Positions 14,917 to 63,702 of a DNA stretch of 64,000 bases are shown in pieces. The stretch is from the NCBI RefSeq assembly GCF_007828835.1, contig NZ_VIVL01000004.1:186001-250000 (forward strand). The letters are read 5' to 3'. The first letter of the stretch is position 1, and every line of letters begins with the position of its first letter. The position numbers and the translations under genes are program-made. Source of the stretch: Variovorax beijingensis. GTDB lineage: Bacteria > Pseudomonadota > Gammaproteobacteria > Burkholderiales > Burkholderiaceae_C. The notes below the pieces were generated by a model that was not told where the DNA came from, searched no databases, and saw only the letters and a program-made list of their open reading frames with translations.

Positions 14917-15564
14917 CTAATTAGCGGCTTCAAGGCCGTTCTTGAAGTGCTCGCGCATCCGCGCCATCGCTGCCGCGGCATCCCGCGCCTCGATGGCCGC
15001 CATCACCGACCGGTGTTCCGCGAGCGATTCCGCGATGCGCCCCGCCTTCAGCAGCGAGTTGTGCCGGTTGAGCTTCATCACCTTGCGCAGGTCGGCCACC
15101 ATCTGGTCGCGCCATTTGTTGTTCGCAATGGCCAGGAGGCGCATGTGGAAGCGCTCGTTGACCGCAAAGAAATGCTCGCGGTCTTCCTTGCCGGGGGCGC
15201 CTGCCGCTTCGAGTTCGGCATGCAGCGCCTTGAGTTCCGCGCGCTGGGCCTCGCTCGCGCGCTCGGCCACCACGCCGGCCGCATCGCTTTCCAGCAGCGA
15301 AAGCAGGTGGTAGACGTCCGCCAGGTCCTGCTCGGACACCTCGGTGACGTAGGCGCCGCGCCGCACCTTCATCGTGACCAGGCCTTCGGCCGCCAGCACC
15401 TTCAGGGCTTCGCGCAGCGGCGTGCGGCTGATGCCGTATTCCTCGGCCAGCTTGAGTTCGTCGATCCAGCTGCCCGGCTCGAGCTCGCGGCGGAAGATCC
15501 GCTGGCGCAGCAGTTCGGCCACTTCTTCATAGAGGGCGCGCGGGGTGAGGGTGAGGGCGGACAT
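14917..15564 (-). CDS. GntR-family (FadR/FCD subfamily) transcriptional regulator
   Basis: A 215-residue regulator. Residues 1-70 form the winged helix with GISRTPLREALKVLAAEGLV; the C-terminal helical FCD domain holds likely metal or ligand residues, including the His pairs in NERFHMRLL and AEHRSVMAAI. It is transcribed divergently from methylmalonyl-CoA mutase, so it is probably the repressor of the propionyl-CoA operon. An 18-bp motif in the shared upstream region recurs before prpE. A short acyl-CoA or organic acid ligand is inferred. Confidence 0.88.
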   Translation of the reverse strand: MSALTLTPRALYEEVAELLRQRIFRRELEPGSWIDELKLAEEYGISRTPLREALKVLAAEGLVTMKVRRGAYVTEVSEQDLADVYHLLSLLESDAAGVVAERASEAQRAELKALHAELEAAGAPGKEDREHFFAVNERFHMRLLAIANNKWRDQMVADLRKVMKLNRHNSLLKAGRIAESLAEHRSVMAAIEARDAAAAMARMREHFKNGLEAAN

Positions 15565-15592
15565 GGGGCGGACTGTACCGCAAAAACGGGTT

Positions 15593-15610
15593 TGAATTAA
15601 TAATTATGGA
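15593..15610. promoter_or_regulatory. Putative propionate-regulon operator, copy 1
   Basis: On the minus strand this reads TCCATAATTATTAATTCA. A sequence identical at 17 of 18 bases occurs before prpE at 61723. It lies 29 bp from the gntR start and 82 bp before the mutase start, in a short AT-rich island. Its core ATAATTAT is a perfect palindrome. It overlaps a TTGAAT hexamer that could act as a -35 element. Confidence 0.6.
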
Positions 15611-15691
15611 TCGGTTAGACTCGCGGCCGGCTTGCAAATCCCTTGCAGGCGAATTTGCGACTACCCTGCAAGACACTGCGAAAAGCCCCTC

Positions 15692-17854
<2,163 letters not shown>

Positions 17855-17864
17855 GAAGCAGAGC

Positions 17865-18341
17865 GTGGGCGATCTCTTGTCTCGGCTGTCGCTGCAGCCG
17901 GTGGAATCCAGCGATTTCGAGGCCATGCTGGCCCTGCGCGTCGATGCGATGCGTCCCAGCCTGGAGCGCGTGGGGCGCTTCGATCCCGCGCGCTCGCGCG
18001 AACGGCTGCAGGCCGGTTTCGTCGTGCCCTTCATGCATCACATCGTGCTCGACGGCGACCGGCGCGTTGGCTTCGTCACGCTCAAGCCCGAGGGCACCGA
18101 CGCCCTTCGGCTCGACCACCTTTACCTGCGCACGGGCTTCCAGGGCCTGGGCATCGGCGAATGGGTGCTCGAGTGGGCCAAGGCGCAGGCGCGCCAGCAG
18201 CAACTGGACATCAAGCTCACCGCGCTCGTACAGAGCGACGCCAACCGCTTCTACCTGCGCCATGGCTTCGTGCTCGAAGGCGAGGAGGGCGTCGACCTGC
18301 ACTACCGCTGGCGTGTGTCGTCCCCGGAGGGCGCGTGCTGA
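17865..18341 (+). CDS. GNAT-family N-acetyltransferase
   Basis: A 158-residue acetyltransferase. The acetyl-CoA loop is [15 protein letters not shown], preceded by the strand [12 protein letters not shown] and followed by [13 protein letters not shown]. The start is GTG 17865, 10 bp after the mutase, and the end overlaps meaB by 7 bp, so it is embedded in the operon. Its substrate is unknown. Its place between mutase and MeaB raises the possibility that it acts on an operon product or a small metabolite, but nothing in the sequence decides this. Confidence 0.88.
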
Positions 18342-19387
18342 ACAAGCCGGCCGCCGCACTGGAGCGCGCAATTGCCGAATCGGACGGCATGGTGCAGCGC
18401 CGCGCCATCGCCAAGGCGATCACGCTGCTCGAATCGACCCGTGCCGATCACCGCGCGCAGGCCGACGAACTGCTCACCGCGCTTCTGCCGCGCACCGGCA
18501 AATCGTTCCGCCTCGGCATCTCGGGCGTGCCGGGCGTCGGCAAGTCGACCTTTATCGAGACGCTGGGCCTGCTGCTGATCGGCAAGGGGCATCGCGTGGC
18601 GGTGCTCACCATCGACCCCTCGTCCACCGTCTCGGGTGGCTCCATCCTCGGCGACAAGACGCGCATGGAGCACCTCTCGGTGCACGAGCGCGCCTACATC
18701 CGGCCCAGCCCGTCGAGCGGCACGCTCGGTGGCGTGGCCGAGAAGACGCGCGAGGCGATGCTGGTGTGCGAGGCCGCGGGCTACGACATCGTGATCGTCG
18801 AGACCGTGGGCGTGGGCCAGAGCGAAACGGCCGTGGCCGGCATGACCGACATGTTCGTGCTGATGCAGCTGCCCAACGCGGGCGACGACCTGCAGGCCAT
18901 CAAGAAGGGCGTGATGGAGCTGGCCGACCTCGTCGTCATCAACAAGGCCGACATCGACAAGGACGCCGCGACGCGCGCGCAGGCCCAGATCACTTCGGCG
19001 CTTCGCCTCTTCGGCCACCAGGGCAACCCGGAGCACGCGCATGCGGTGCACGACGCGCACAGCGGCACGGAGGTGCGCTTCTGGCTGCCCAAGGTGCTGC
19101 AGCTCAGCGCGTTGGCAGGCACGGGCGTCGATGCGTTCTGGGACGCCGTCACCCAATTCAGGCGACTGCAGACGGCCAATGGCAAGCTCGCCAGGCGCCG
19201 CGAGAAGCAGGCCACCGCGTGGATGTGGGAGCGCATCGACGCCGGGCTCAAGCACGCCTTCAGGCATCACCCGCAGGTGCGCGAGCTGCTACCCGAGCTC
19301 ACGCAGCAGGTGGCCGAGGGCGCGCTGCCTGCATCGACGGCGGCGCGCCAGCTGCTTGCGGCGGCCGCCATCACCGCCAGGCCATGA
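18335..19387 (+). CDS. meaB: Methylmalonyl-CoA mutase-associated GTPase MeaB (ArgK family)
   Basis: A 350-residue G3E-type GTPase that gates cofactor loading and protects the B12 mutase. It has Walker [10 protein letters not shown], the Mg-binding [20 protein letters not shown] region, ETVGVGQSE as switch II and NKAD for guanine. The start is GTG 18335, with GGAGG five bases upstream, overlapping the GNAT stop. Co-transcription with the mutase is typical of the family. Confidence 0.95.
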
Positions 19388-19433: not shown

Positions 19434-20978
<1,545 letters not shown>

Positions 20979-21689: not shown

Positions 21690-23738
21690 ATGTTCAAGAA
21701 AATACTCATTGCCAACCGCGGGGAAATCGCCTGCCGCGTGATCCAGACCGCGAAGAAGATGGGCATCCTCACCGTCGCCGTCTACTCCGACGCCGACAAG
21801 GAAGCCCGCCACGTCGAGCTGGCCGACGAGGCCGTGCACATCGGCGCCGCGCCCAGCCGCGAGAGCTACCTGCAGGCCGACCGCATCATCGCGGCCTGCA
21901 AGAAGACCGGCGCCGAGGCCGTGCATCCGGGCTACGGCTTCCTCTCGGAGAACGAAGCTTTCGCGCGCAAGGTCGAGGAGGAGGGCATCGCCTTCATCGG
22001 GCCGAAGCACTATTCGATCGCCGCCATGGGCGACAAGATCGCCTCCAAGAAGCTCGCGAACGAGGCCAAGGTCAACACCATCCCGGGCTGGAACGATGCC
22101 ATCGAGACGGCCGAGCGCGCGGTCGAGATCGCGAAGGACATCGGCTATCCGGTGATGATCAAGGCCTCGGCCGGCGGAGGCGGCAAGGGCCTGCGCGTGG
22201 CCTATAACGACAAGGAAGCTTTCGAGGGTTTCACCTCGTGCCGCAACGAGGCGCTCGCCAGCTTCGGCGACGATCGCGTGTTCATCGAGAAGTTCGTCGA
22301 GGAGCCGCGCCACATCGAGATCCAGGTGCTGGGCGACTCGCACGGCAACGTGATCTACCTGAACGAGCGCGAATGCTCGATCCAGCGCCGCCATCAGAAG
22401 GTGATCGAGGAGGCGCCGTCGCCCTTCATCAGCGATGCCACCCGCAAGGCGATGGGCGAGCAGGCTGTGCAGCTGGCCAAGGCCGTGAAATACCAGAGCG
22501 CGGGCACGGTGGAGTTCGTGGTCGGCAAGGACCAGAGCTTCTACTTTCTGGAGATGAACACGCGGCTGCAGGTGGAGCACCCGGTGACCGAATGCATCAC
22601 GGGGCTCGACCTGGTCGAACTGATGATCCGCGTGGCGGCCGGTGAAGAGTTGCCGCTTACGCAGGAGCAGGTCAAGCGCAACGGCTGGGCCATCGAGTGC
22701 CGCATCAATGCCGAAGATCCGTTCCGCAGCTTCCTGCCTTCGACCGGCCGCCTGGTGAAGTTCCAGCCGCCGGCCGAGACCATGTTCGCAAGCGACACCG
22801 AGCACCTGAACGGCGTGCGCGTGGACACCGGCGTGTACGACGGCGGCGAGATCCCGATGTACTACGACTCGATGATCGCCAAGCTCATCGTGCACGGCAA
22901 GGACCGTCAGCATGCGATTGCCCGCATGCGCGAGGCGCTCAACGGCTTCGTGATTCGCGGCATCAGCAGCAACATCCCGTTCCAGGCCGCGCTGCTCGCG
23001 CATCCGAAATTCGTGGCGGGCGACTTCAACACAGGCTTCATCGCCGAGCACTACGGCAAGGGCTTCCACGCCGAGGACGTGCCGCATGCCGATCCTTCGT
23101 TCCTGATTGCGCTCGCGGCCTATGTGCATCGCCGCTACCGCGCGCGCGCTTCGGGCATCAGCGGGCAGCTCGAAGGCCACGGCGTGAAGGTGGGCGAGCA
23201 GTTCGTGGTGGTGGAGCTGGGGCCGGAGGGCAAGCATGTGCACCATCCGGTGTCGGTCACCGATTTCCATGGCAAGACAGGCGCCAGCGCCGTGGCCGTG
23301 GGCGGCAAGAGCTACAAGATCGATAGCGGCTTTGCGCTCGGCGCCATCCGCGTGCAGGGCATGGTCAACGACCGGCCCTTCACCGCGCAGGTGGAGCGCG
23401 GGGCCGGCAAGAACCCGCTGGCGCTGCGCGTGTCGCACGACGGCACGCAGATCGAGGCGATGGTGCTGTCGCCCCTGGGGGCGCGCCTGCTCGAACTGAT
23501 GCCCTACAAGGCGCCGCCGGACCTGAGCAAGTTCCTGATGTCGCCGATGCCGGGCCTGCTGGTCGAGGTGTCGGTGCAGCCGGGGCAGCAGGTGCGCGCC
23601 GGCGAGAAGCTGGCCGTGATCGAGGCCATGAAGATGGAAAACGTGCTGTTCGCTTCGCAGGACGGCGTGGTGGGCAAGATTTCGGCGGAAAAGGGCGAAT
23701 CGCTCGCCGTCGATCAAATCATTCTGGAGTTCAACTGA
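21690..23738 (+). CDS. pccA: Propionyl-CoA carboxylase alpha chain (biotin carboxylase plus biotin carrier)
   Basis: A 682-residue biotin enzyme. Residues 1-450 form biotin carboxylase, with [17 protein letters not shown], the ATP-grasp loop [12 protein letters not shown] and [17 protein letters not shown] linker region follows, and the C-terminal carrier has EAMKMENVL, whose Lys is biotinylated. It carboxylates biotin with ATP and bicarbonate and hands CO2 to PccB. The stop overlaps the bioB ATG by one base (TGATG), linking it to local biotin synthesis. Confidence 0.95.
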
Positions 23739-24766
23739 TGGGTGCCAACGACCTGCAACAAACGATCACGCTGCACCGGCCTGCGAAGGCCGAGGCGCCG
23801 CAAGGGCCATGGACGGTCGAAGCGATACAGGCGCTGCTCGACAAGCCGCTGATGGACCTGCTGTTCGAGGCGCAGACCGTGCACCGCCAGCACTTCCCGG
23901 AAGGCGACATCGAACTGGCGACGCTGCTCTCGGTCAAGACCGGTGGCTGTCCCGAGAACTGCGGCTACTGCCCGCAGTCGGCCGAGTTCGACACCGGCGT
24001 GAAGGCGCAGAAGCTCATGGAAGTCGACGAGGTGGTGCGCGCCGCGCAGGCCGCCAAGGACGCCGGCGCCACGCGCTTCTGCATGGGCGCCGCATGGCGC
24101 GCGCCGAAGGACCGCGACGTCGAGAAGGTGGCGGTGCTGGTCGAGGCCGTGAAGGGGCTGGGCCTGCAGACCTGCGCCACGCTCGGCATGCTGGAGCCGC
24201 ACCACGCGCACCAGCTCAAGGCCGCGGGCCTGGACTACTACAACCACAACCTCGACACCGCGCCCGAGTACTACACCGACGTGGTCGACACGCGCACCTA
24301 CCAGGACCGGCTCGACACCCTGGCCCATGTGCGCAGCGCCGGCATCAGCGTGTGCTGCGGCGGCATCGTCGGCATGGGCGAGGCGCCGGTGCACCGCGCG
24401 GGGCTGATCGCGCAGCTGGCCAACCTGGATCCGTACCCGGAGTCGGTGCCGATCAACAGCCTGGTACGCGTGCCGGGCACACCACTGGCCGACTCGGAGC
24501 CGGTCGATCCCTTCGACTTCGTGCGCATGATCGCGGTCGCGCGCATCACGATGCCGACGGCTCGCGTGCGGCTCTCGGCCGGGCGCCAGCAGATGGGCGA
24601 TGCGGTGCAGGCGCTGTGCTTCATGGCCGGCGCGAATTCGATCTTCTACGGCGACAAGCTGCTGGTCACCGGCAACCCCGACGTCGAGGCCGACACGGTG
24701 CTGCTACGCAAGCTCGGGCTCAATGCGCGGCAGGTGCAGGAACAGCCCGAAGGTTGCGCCGCATGA
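23738..24766 (+). CDS. bioB: Biotin synthase
   Basis: A 342-residue radical SAM enzyme that inserts sulfur into dethiobiotin. The SAM cluster motif [11 protein letters not shown] (CxxxCxxC) is near residue 72. The conserved YYNHNLDT follows, and the auxiliary [2Fe-2S] cluster residues lie in [17 protein letters not shown] and the Arg in ARVRLSAGR. It is coupled to pccA by a one-base overlap and to the next gene by ATGA. The rest of the bio pathway is not here; its position suggests biotin supply matched to carboxylase synthesis. Confidence 0.95.
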
Positions 24767-25254
24767 CCACCGCCGCCGCACGCCCCTTCAAGGTCCTGGG
24801 CATCCAGCAGATCGCCATCGGCGGACCCGACAAGCTGCGCCTGCAGAAGCTCTGGGTCGACATGCTGGGGCTCGAAGTCACAGGCACCTTCAAGAGCGAG
24901 CGCGAGAACGTCGACGAGGACATCTGTTCGATGGGCAGCGGGCCCTTCAAGGTCGAGGTCGACCTGATGCAGCCGCTGGACGCCGAGAAGAAGCCGGCCG
25001 TTCACGCCACGCCGCTCAACCATGTGGGCCTGTGGATCGACGACCTGCCCAGGGCCGTCGAGTGGCTCACTGCGCAGGGCGTGCGCTTTGCGCCCGGCGG
25101 CATCCGCAAGGGCGCGGCGGGTTTCGACATCTGCTTCCTGCACCCGAAGGCGAACGACGAGTTTCCGATCGCGGGCGAGGGCGTGCTGATCGAGATGGTG
25201 CAGGCGCCGCCCGAGGTGGTGGCGGCCTTCAGCGCGCTGGCCGCTACGCGTTAA
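24763..25254 (+). CDS. VOC-family protein, candidate methylmalonyl-CoA epimerase
   Basis: A 163-residue glyoxalase-fold protein with two beta-alpha modules. The second module has [17 protein letters not shown] and LIEMVQAP, all like methylmalonyl-CoA epimerase. In the first module the metal-ligand His position of the family reads Gln (GIQQIAIGG), an unusual feature that leaves activity open. The pathway from PccAB to mutase needs an epimerase, and this is the only candidate in the operon. The ATG overlaps the bioB stop; the 3' end overlaps the convergent Lrp gene by 11 bp. Confidence 0.75.
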
Positions 25255-61680: not shown

Positions 61681-61700
61681 GGCCGGATTGTTCCGGCCGT
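61681..61700. terminator. Perfect 8-bp stem-loop after the isochorismatase gene
   Basis: CGGCCGGA-TTGT-TCCGGCCG, followed by a T-poor stretch. It lies about 30 bp after the stop and separates it from the prpE promoter. Confidence 0.5.
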
Positions 61701-61722
61701 CAGCTTGCTGCAAGATCGGTCT

Positions 61723-61740
61723 CCATAATTATGAATTCAG
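61723..61740. promoter_or_regulatory. Putative propionate-regulon operator, copy 2
   Basis: TCCATAATTATGAATTCA differs at one base from the minus-strand sequence at 15593-15610 between gntR and the mutase gene. It lies 49 bp before the prpE start and contains the perfect palindrome CATAATTATG. Confidence 0.6.
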
Positions 61741-61788: not shown

Positions 61789-63702
61789 ATGAGCCGCTAC
61801 GAAGAGTTCTATCGCCAGTCCGTCGATGCGCCCGAGGCCTTCTGGGCCGAGCAGGCGAAGCTGATCGACTGGCAGACCCCCGCAGAGCAGATCCTCGACG
61901 CGAGCCAGCCGCCCTTTGCGCGCTGGTTCGTGGGCGGCACCACCAACCTGTGCCACAACGCGGTCGACCGGCACCTGGCCACGCGCGGCGACCAGCCTGC
62001 GCTGATCTTCGTTTCCACCGAAACCGGGGTGGAGAAGAGTTACAGCTTCAAGGAACTGCACGCCGAAGTGCAGCGCACCGCCGCCAGCCTGATCGAACTG
62101 GGCGTGGGGAAGGGCGACCGCGTGCTCATCTACATGCCGATGATTCCCGAGGCCGCCTTCGCGATGCTGGCCTGCGCGCGCATCGGCGCCATCCACTGCG
62201 TGGTGTTCGGCGGATTCGCGAGCGGCTCGCTGGCCACGCGCATCGAGGACGCCGAGCCCAAGGTGGTGGTGAGCGCGGACGCCGGCTCGCGCGGCGGCAA
62301 GGTCATTGCGTACAAGCCGCTGCTCGACGAGGCGATCCGGCTGTCGAAGTACAAGCCGGCCGCGCTGCTGCTCACCGACCGCGGCCTGGCCCCCATGGAC
62401 CTGACGGCCGGCCGCGACCACCTGGCCGGCGAACTCCGGCAAAAGCACCTCGACGCCGAGGTGCCATGCACCTGGCTGGCCGCCACCGACATCAGCTACA
62501 CCATCTACACCAGCGGCACCACCGGCAAGCCCAAGGGCGTGCAGCGCGACGTCGGCGGCTATGCCGTGGCGCTGGCCGCGAGCATGAAGCACATCTTCGA
62601 CGGCCGGCCTGGCGAAACCTACTTCTCGACCAGCGACATCGGCTGGGTGGTGGGCCACAGCTACATCGTCTACGGTCCGCTGATCGCCGGCATGGCCACC
62701 CTCATGTACGAGGGCCTGCCCACGCAGGGCATCGACCGGCAGCCCGACGGCGGCATCTGGTGGCGCCTGGTCGAGAAATACAAGGTGACGGTGATGTTCA
62801 GCGCACCCACCGCGGTGCGCGTGCTCAAGAAGCAGGATCCGGCGCTGCTGAAGAAATACGACCTGTCGAGCCTGCGCGCTCTGTTTCTTGCCGGCGAGCC
62901 GCTCGACGAGCCCACCGCGCGCTGGATCAGCGAAGGCCTGGGCGTGCCCATCATCGACAACTACTGGCAGACCGAGTCGGGCTGGCCGATGATCACCATT
63001 GCCAACGGCGTCGAGGCCAAGCCCAGCAAGTTCGGCAGCCCCGGTGTCCCGATGTATGGCTACCGCATCAAGATCCTGCACGAATCGACCGGCGAGGAAT
63101 TGACCGCCCCCAATGAAAAGGGCGTGGTCGTGGTCGAAGGCCCGACCCCGCCCGGCTTCATGCAGACGGTGTGGAAGGACGATGCGCGCTTCGTCGACAC
63201 CTACTGGAAGAGCGTGCCGGGCAGGATGGTCTATTCGACCTTCGACTGGGGCATTCGCGACGAGGACGGCTACTTCTACATCCTCGGGCGCACCGACGAC
63301 GTGATCAACGTGGCCGGCCACCGCCTGGGCACCCGCGAGATCGAGGAGAGCATCTCGGGCCACGCCAACGTGGCCGAAGTGGCGGTGGTGGGTGTGGCCG
63401 ATGCGCTCAAGGGCCAGGTGGCAATGGCTTTCGTGGTGCCGAAGGACGGCATCGCCGTGACCGACACCGATGCGGCGCTGAAGCTCGAAGGCGAGCTCAT
63501 GAAGGTGGTGGCCGACCAGCTCGGTGCGCTGGCGCGGCCCGCGCGGGTGCGCTTCGTCTCGGGCCTGCCCAAGACCCGCAGCGGCAAGCTGCTGCGGCGC
63601 GCCATCCAGGCCGTGTGCGAACAGCGCGATCCGGGCGACCTGACCACCATCGACGACCCTGCCACCCTGCAGCAGATCAGGCAGCTGGTTTCTTCCGCCT
63701 GA
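61789..63702 (+). CDS. prpE: Propionate--CoA ligase
   Basis: A 637-residue acyl-CoA synthetase (AMP-forming). It has the ATP loop YTSGTTGKPKGVQRD, the PrpE-type VGGYAVALAASMKHIF, A4/A5 motifs YWQTESGWP and YFYILGRTDDVINV, and the C-terminal PKTRSGKLLRR with the acetylation-prone Lys. It activates propionate (and probably acetate) for the methylmalonyl-CoA pathway encoded 36 kb upstream. ATG 61789 has AGGAG ten bases upstream; ATG 61765 is an alternative. Confidence 0.93.
   Translation: MSRYEEFYRQSVDAPEAFWAEQAKLIDWQTPAEQILDASQPPFARWFVGGTTNLCHNAVDRHLATRGDQPALIFVSTETGVEKSYSFKELHAEVQRTAASLIELGVGKGDRVLIYMPMIPEAAFAMLACARIGAIHCVVFGGFASGSLATRIEDAEPKVVVSADAGSRGGKVIAYKPLLDEAIRLSKYKPAALLLTDRGLAPMDLTAGRDHLAGELRQKHLDAEVPCTWLAATDISYTIYTSGTTGKPKGVQRDVGGYAVALAASMKHIFDGRPGETYFSTSDIGWVVGHSYIVYGPLIAGMATLMYEGLPTQGIDRQPDGGIWWRLVEKYKVTVMFSAPTAVRVLKKQDPALLKKYDLSSLRALFLAGEPLDEPTARWISEGLGVPIIDNYWQTESGWPMITIANGVEAKPSKFGSPGVPMYGYRIKILHESTGEELTAPNEKGVVVVEGPTPPGFMQTVWKDDARFVDTYWKSVPGRMVYSTFDWGIRDEDGYFYILGRTDDVINVAGHRLGTREIEESISGHANVAEVAVVGVADALKGQVAMAFVVPKDGIAVTDTDAALKLEGELMKVVADQLGALARPARVRFVSGLPKTRSGKLLRRAIQAVCEQRDPGDLTTIDDPATLQQIRQLVSSA

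Follow-up and report, generated by a model that had tools for sequence, protein, structure and literature searches.

Why would two promoters 46 kb apart carry almost the same 18 bases? The question is raised by a 64,000-nt stretch of DNA from the soil bacterium Variovorax beijingensis (GC content 67%), referred to here as a whole as the window. One copy, operator-like site 1 (TCCATAATTATTAATTCA, 15593..15610, minus strand), lies in the intergenic region between gntR and mcm and is conserved 5' of GntR orthologues; its 15-base core (15593-15607, minus strand) is separated by 28 bases from the gntR start codon. The other, operator-like site 2 (TCCATAATTATGAATTCA, 61722..61739, plus strand), is separated by 49 bases from the prpE start codon. 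A preliminary description had reported a near-identical 18-mer with one change at both promoters, and direct reading of both strands bore this out: the two 18-mers differ by a single mismatch, the prpE-side copy lying at 61722-61739 and not, one base off, at 61723-61740. Scanning the full 64,000 nt for TCCATAATTATKAATTCA with up to three mismatches returned exactly two sites, and 100 shuffles of the window returned none. At the same tolerance the whole source genome (6,940,936 bases, 37 contigs) yielded these two sites and nothing more, as it did when the 15-base core RTAATTATKRATKCA was sought with at most one mismatch. The genome scan that had been suggested as a check thus gave two matches, both at the expected genes, and the judgement that such identity is very unlikely to be due to chance holds (no match in the 100 shuffles, two in the whole 6.94 Mb).

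The genes beside the sites had also been named correctly as those for an FCD/GntR regulator, methylmalonyl-CoA mutase and the propionate--CoA ligase PrpE. The proposed binder is the 215-aa FCD-type GntR regulator encoded at 14917..15564 (minus strand), in which Pfam models PF00392 (GntR) and PF07729 (FCD) score above cut-off; an N-terminal GntR winged helix joined to a C-terminal FCD domain places it in the FadR (FCD) subfamily of the GntR family. None of the NCBIfam models reached its cut-off with this protein, the best being TIGR03338 at 114.5 of 271.5 bits. Divergent from gntR is mcm, encoding methylmalonyl-CoA mutase (15692..17854, plus strand), and 3' of it on the same strand follow meaB, for the mutase-associated GTPase (18161..19387; the true start is uncertain, as the family model aligns only from residue 70 on), a pccB-like carboxyltransferase gene (19434..20978; Pfam Carboxyl_trans, start taken from the translation), an unassigned stretch, a pccA-like gene for a biotin carboxylase with a biotin carrier domain (21690..23738; the name pccA is inferred from context), a bioB-like biotin synthase gene (23738..24766; Pfam Radical_SAM and BATS) and a gene for a methylmalonyl-CoA epimerase-like protein (24802..25254; TIGR03081 below cut-off, 42.4 of 114.95 bits). 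Judged by their order and spacing, the genes after mcm may form one operon. The bioB-like gene lies within this putative propionyl-CoA carboxylase operon and adjoins a biotin-dependent enzyme. Site 2 precedes prpE, for propionate--CoA ligase (61789..63702, plus strand; NF007815 and TIGR02316 above cut-off). In many orthologues a -10-like box, TACAGT/TACAAT, is found immediately 5' of the gntR start codon (15564-15580 in the window), a position from which the gntR messenger may be leaderless.

We consider it probable, on the comparisons set out below, that both sites are operators of the adjacent FCD-type GntR protein acting as a repressor, which would govern a small regulon consisting of the mcm operon and prpE and would be relieved by propionyl-CoA or methylmalonyl-CoA; we infer the binder, its repression and its ligand alike. 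A GntR dimer would bind the near-palindrome, whose ideal form is TTCATAATTATGAA. At mcm the site occupies the predicted promoter spacer and extends over a -35-like box, so that GntR bound there would obstruct RNA polymerase; as it also stands before gntR, autoregulation is possible. At prpE it covers CATAAT, a candidate -10 box. Once propionyl-CoA or its product accumulates, a small ligand held in the FCD domain would release GntR, and prpE (propionate activation) and the methylmalonyl-CoA route would be switched on together. Propionate itself as the signal is not supported by any result obtained here.

Conservation was assessed in a family sample of 120 genomes, one per genus. The exact core RTAATTATKRATKCA gave 83 matches in 60 of these genomes, a count that is not independent of design since the core was derived from variants within the same family, the locations being found afterwards; the reversed control pattern had no exact match in the 120 genomes. 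By coordinates, 56 matches lie within 400 bases upstream of a GntR orthologue, a further 24 precede prpE and the last 3 are elsewhere, so that 80 of the 83 are at GntR/mcm or prpE and kept in relatives, as a small regulon predicts. In a looser first scan at least 226 of 299 family genomes had matched the 18-mer within three mismatches, and the reversed control had matched many too. Two outcomes that the preliminary description had named as fatal to its proposal, many hits at unrelated genes and no conservation in relatives, did not occur, with only those 3 matches elsewhere across the 120 genomes and an exact core 5' of 56 of 92 GntR orthologues. In the genus set, 48 of 51 genomes match the core within one mismatch, with two exact matches in 35, one in 12 and none in the single genome that has a 1-mismatch match only. 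Among the 35 genomes with two matches, 27 have both on one contig, and in 27/27 these are on opposite strands, 45-165 kb apart.

That the sites are a coincidence, or a core-promoter element common to both genes that has no regulator of its own, is scarcely credible. The overlap of the mcm site with promoter-like boxes would suit such a reading, but chance was rejected by the shuffles and by the whole-genome and family scans (none in 100 shuffles, two in the genome, 80 of 83 family matches at two genes), and a shared core-promoter box was rejected on orientation: relative to transcription of its target gene, the site at mcm points the opposite way to the site at prpE.

Genes at the three matches elsewhere were named from reading of translations, not by family search. 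At L116 no propionate-related gene was recognised among the translations, and the match is probably due to chance. At L117 (about 2056) the exact core lies between genes read as bioY and birA, and is flanked by TTGTCAAC and GTTGACA, which look like a possible biotin operator. At L118 (about 1972), in a genome (G117) that has the GntR and prpE sites too, it lies upstream of a gene read as thiolase, possibly a real third target.

The two arms of the proposed regulon differ in their reach. With GntR orthologues called at E ≤ 1e-60, both GntR and mcm were found in 90 of the 120 genomes, GntR only in 2, mcm only in 8 and neither in 20; one of the 8 mcm-only genomes, G031, in fact has GntR beside mcm. 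In 87 of 92 family genomes the two genes face each other, GntR lying within 1.5 kb of mcm. Regions without an exact core were scored with a weight matrix built from 34 distinct sites (named loci and genus prpE promoters). Upstream of GntR, 34 of 36 such regions scored above all 180 shuffles; upstream of prpE, this was so against all 300 shuffles for 11 of 60 regions from genomes with GntR, and for none of 14 from genomes without GntR against their 70 shuffles. Upstream of mcm in genomes without GntR, 2 of 5 regions scored above shuffles, namely G031 and G086; in G086 a search for GntR gave no match, and the score overlies the apparent mcm start, where it is probably due to chance in a coding start. 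The first search left 18 genomes with prpE and no GntR, comprising 2 with an exact site, the 14 scored by matrix, and G090 and G101, which were excluded with prpE at a contig end.

Altogether, a prpE site is present in 33 of the 84 genomes with both genes (22 exact, 11 by matrix) and no site was detected in 51. Its presence follows the identity of GntR to the window protein, at 23 of 30 genomes with at least 74% identity and 10 of 54 below (Fisher p about 3e-7, relatedness ignored, with the 74% line set after the data were seen). Nearly all GntR orthologues have the gntR/mcm site, and the prpE site is largely clade-bound; since the prpE arm occurs mostly where GntR closely resembles the window protein, the greater part of the family carries the site locally, at gntR/mcm. 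Judged by these identity classes, not by a tree, the site at gntR/mcm appears to be ancestral and prpE to be a later, mainly clade-bound member. The earlier proposal of one GntR operator defining a propionate regulon is thus upheld as a prediction by rarity and conservation, with its prpE arm cut back largely to genomes that have a close GntR.

Beyond the family, an order-level scan found the exact core in 23 of 200 genomes, with reversed-pattern matches too in some of the 200. Thirty loci were examined (31 matches are listed), with GntR at 7 and prpE at 3 others; none of the genes searched for was found at the remaining 20, most of which we take to be chance matches in AT-richer genomes. Of the seven with GntR, four are GntR/mcm loci (L340, L341, L347 and L348); they come from 4 of 195 order-level genomes outside the family, belonging to four other families, and their GntR proteins are 53-65% identical.

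These distributions bear on whether the sites are bound by another transcription factor, gntR being merely the neighbour of one of them, which we regard as quite improbable. The source genome contains 35 regions similar to the window GntR at E ≤ 0.001 (the window GntR included), among which there are other candidate binders; the boxes usual for the FadR subfamily according to section 10 of PMC4494728 are missing from the site; and two genomes, G048 (86% complete) and G063 (97% complete), have an exact prpE site and no GntR orthologue detected at E ≤ 1e-60. Against another factor, the site lies upstream of GntR in nearly all 92 family genomes and reaches the four other families at GntR/mcm even where GntR is only 53-65% identical, the prevalence of the prpE site tracks GntR similarity, and a palindrome containing TAATTA also stands before the gene of the nearest paralogue. 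In G063 (L120, about 2066) the exact prpE site is kept, no mcm or GntR orthologue was found and the best GntR match is a 44% relative; the site may be a relic, the mark of an assembly gap or the target of another binder.

If GntR is the binder, the anatomy of the sites is informative as to how it would act. The ideal core is a perfect palindrome, and consists of ATAATTAT with TGAATT arms; over the equivalent 14 bases, the two window sites agree with their reverse complements at 10/14 and 12/14 positions. In the mcm direction a promoter-like TTGAAT-N18-TAGACT (15592..15621, plus strand), predicted from conservation only, holds the core of site 1 in its spacer, with the edge of the site over the first box. 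Of 80 named loci, 72 fit TTGVAT-N16-18-TAVAMT with the core within the spacer, which measures 18 bases in 64, 17 in 5 and 16 in 3. A standard promoter scan returned nothing at the mcm site or at the prpE site, and the mcm boxes are visible only through comparison of orthologues. Repressors typically bind between promoter boxes, and the location of the core between those of mcm suggests repression. That the same GntR instead binds both sites as an activator, or represses one promoter and activates the other, is unlikely: it would accommodate the opposite orientation of the sites, by which geometry differs between the two promoters, and the failure of the standard scan to find prpE promoter boxes, but not so readily a core placed at mcm where a repressor would be expected.

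Among 22 distinct prpE promoters of the genus, chosen for an exact core, site 2 is the best conserved block (mean identity 0.97, vs 0.71 upstream and 0.61 downstream). A second conserved block, GTCAGCTT...GCAAG (AAG conserved), lies 5' of the prpE site at 61700-61720 of the window, and may represent a -35 region or else an additional binding site.

Of the 36 regions upstream of GntR that have no exact core, 11 contain a re-spaced palindrome, ATAATTCAATTTTGAATTAT, within two mismatches. It is a perfect inverted repeat of two 9-base arms with a TT centre, and compared with the ideal core each of its TGAATT half-sites is shifted inwards by one base; both arms are thus changed symmetrically, as expected of a dimer-bound site. 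The altered palindrome was found, within four mismatches, at none of 60 prpE regions tested. Residue co-variation was examined by setting 10 GntR proteins picked as altered against 15 others. Nine of the ten have the altered palindrome upstream within two mismatches, and the tenth (G052, L272) has no altered palindrome and carries the usual R26, E29 and K38. The nine have H26 (9/9), A29 (9/9) and Q37 (8/9) and never K38 (0/9), and the 15 others mostly have R26 (14/15), E29 (11/15), L37 (10/15, with Q37 in 4/15) and K38 (11/15). The recognition helix is unchanged between the two groups; as it is constant, and as shared ancestry could explain the pattern, the co-variation is given little weight.

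Odd-chain fatty acids, branched amino acids and isoprene all give rise to propionyl-CoA, whose accumulation is harmful. Isoprene as a source is described in PMC9804861. In Variovorax sp. WS11 the genes run mcm-meaB-pccB-pccA, and both sites are present, one at GntR/mcm and the other at prpE; accessions NDZ11975, NDZ11976 and NDZ11978 fit this gene order, a fit by order and not by sequence match. A second WS11 carboxylase cluster, which includes a propionate-CoA ligase of its own, is also induced, so the site-bearing prpE may or may not respond. With a repressor of the mcm operon and prpE, the methylmalonyl-CoA route of a large betaproteobacterial group would have a predicted regulator and operator open to testing; one putative operator would serve both a local target that appears ancestral and, 46 kb away, a clade-bound target that came later.

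The closest other GntR of the source genome (L004; 45% identity with the window protein) is encoded ahead of a malonyl-CoA decarboxylase gene, and this paralogue is presumably MatR/MdcY-like. The two are alike in being FCD GntR proteins with the same recognition helix, and the paralogue too has a TAATTA-containing palindrome upstream of its gene (GTAATTACGCGTAATTAC-like at L004, upstream of 1507, with AATTAYGCGTAATTA in 20 of 22 genus loci, L304-L325); it differs in its malonyl-CoA decarboxylase target and in a longer, GC-centred palindrome. The paralogue palindrome supports linking TAATTA-like elements to this regulator branch, and by analogy a CoA thioester or its acid would be the most plausible kind of ligand. 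More tentatively, and with some doubt, the window GntR and the malonyl-CoA decarboxylase regulator may be sister sensors derived by duplication, the operator of the former having been re-spaced within one family from ATTCATAATTATGAAT to ATAATTCAATTTTGAATTAT and prpE recruited mainly in one clade, with methylmalonyl-CoA or propionyl-CoA as what the window protein senses. Were this so, the family would offer a natural series in which to watch an operator and a regulon evolve together.

RegPrecise includes a GntR-type PrpQ, and a name of this kind may already exist there for the window regulator. Among the literature matches listed, no title or abstract concerned this operator or regulon; Suvorova, Ravcheev and Gelfand 2012, the likeliest place, lay outside that coverage. 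The main text of PMC5343134 contains none of the terms propion, methylmalonyl and prpE. PMC4494728 names FadR, LldR, PdhR and MdcY among FadR-subfamily (FCD) regulators, gives TKGT/ACMA boxes as their common operator consensus, and in its section 10 groups a PrpR of the subfamily with sites whose GT and AC boxes are separated by 2 nt, in an entry that points to Suvorova, Ravcheev and Gelfand 2012. By its name that PrpR resembles the window protein as a GntR-type propionate regulator; it differs in the 2-nt GT/AC spacing, which is absent from the window sites. TKGT/ACMA boxes, a common and non-universal feature of the subfamily according to PMC4494728, were not found in the window sites either, and without them the window operator resembles exceptions named there, such as BioR (TTATMKATAA). 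Membership of the FadR subfamily rests on the domains of the regulator, not on operator boxes. With FadR, LldR, PdhR and MdcY, as treated in PMC4494728, the window protein shares the domain pair and an AT-rich near-palindrome before its own gene and a divergent target. Comparative genomics thus lends good support to a predicted regulator of an ordinary local metabolic type, with a small regulon and an operator that departs from the consensus of its subfamily.
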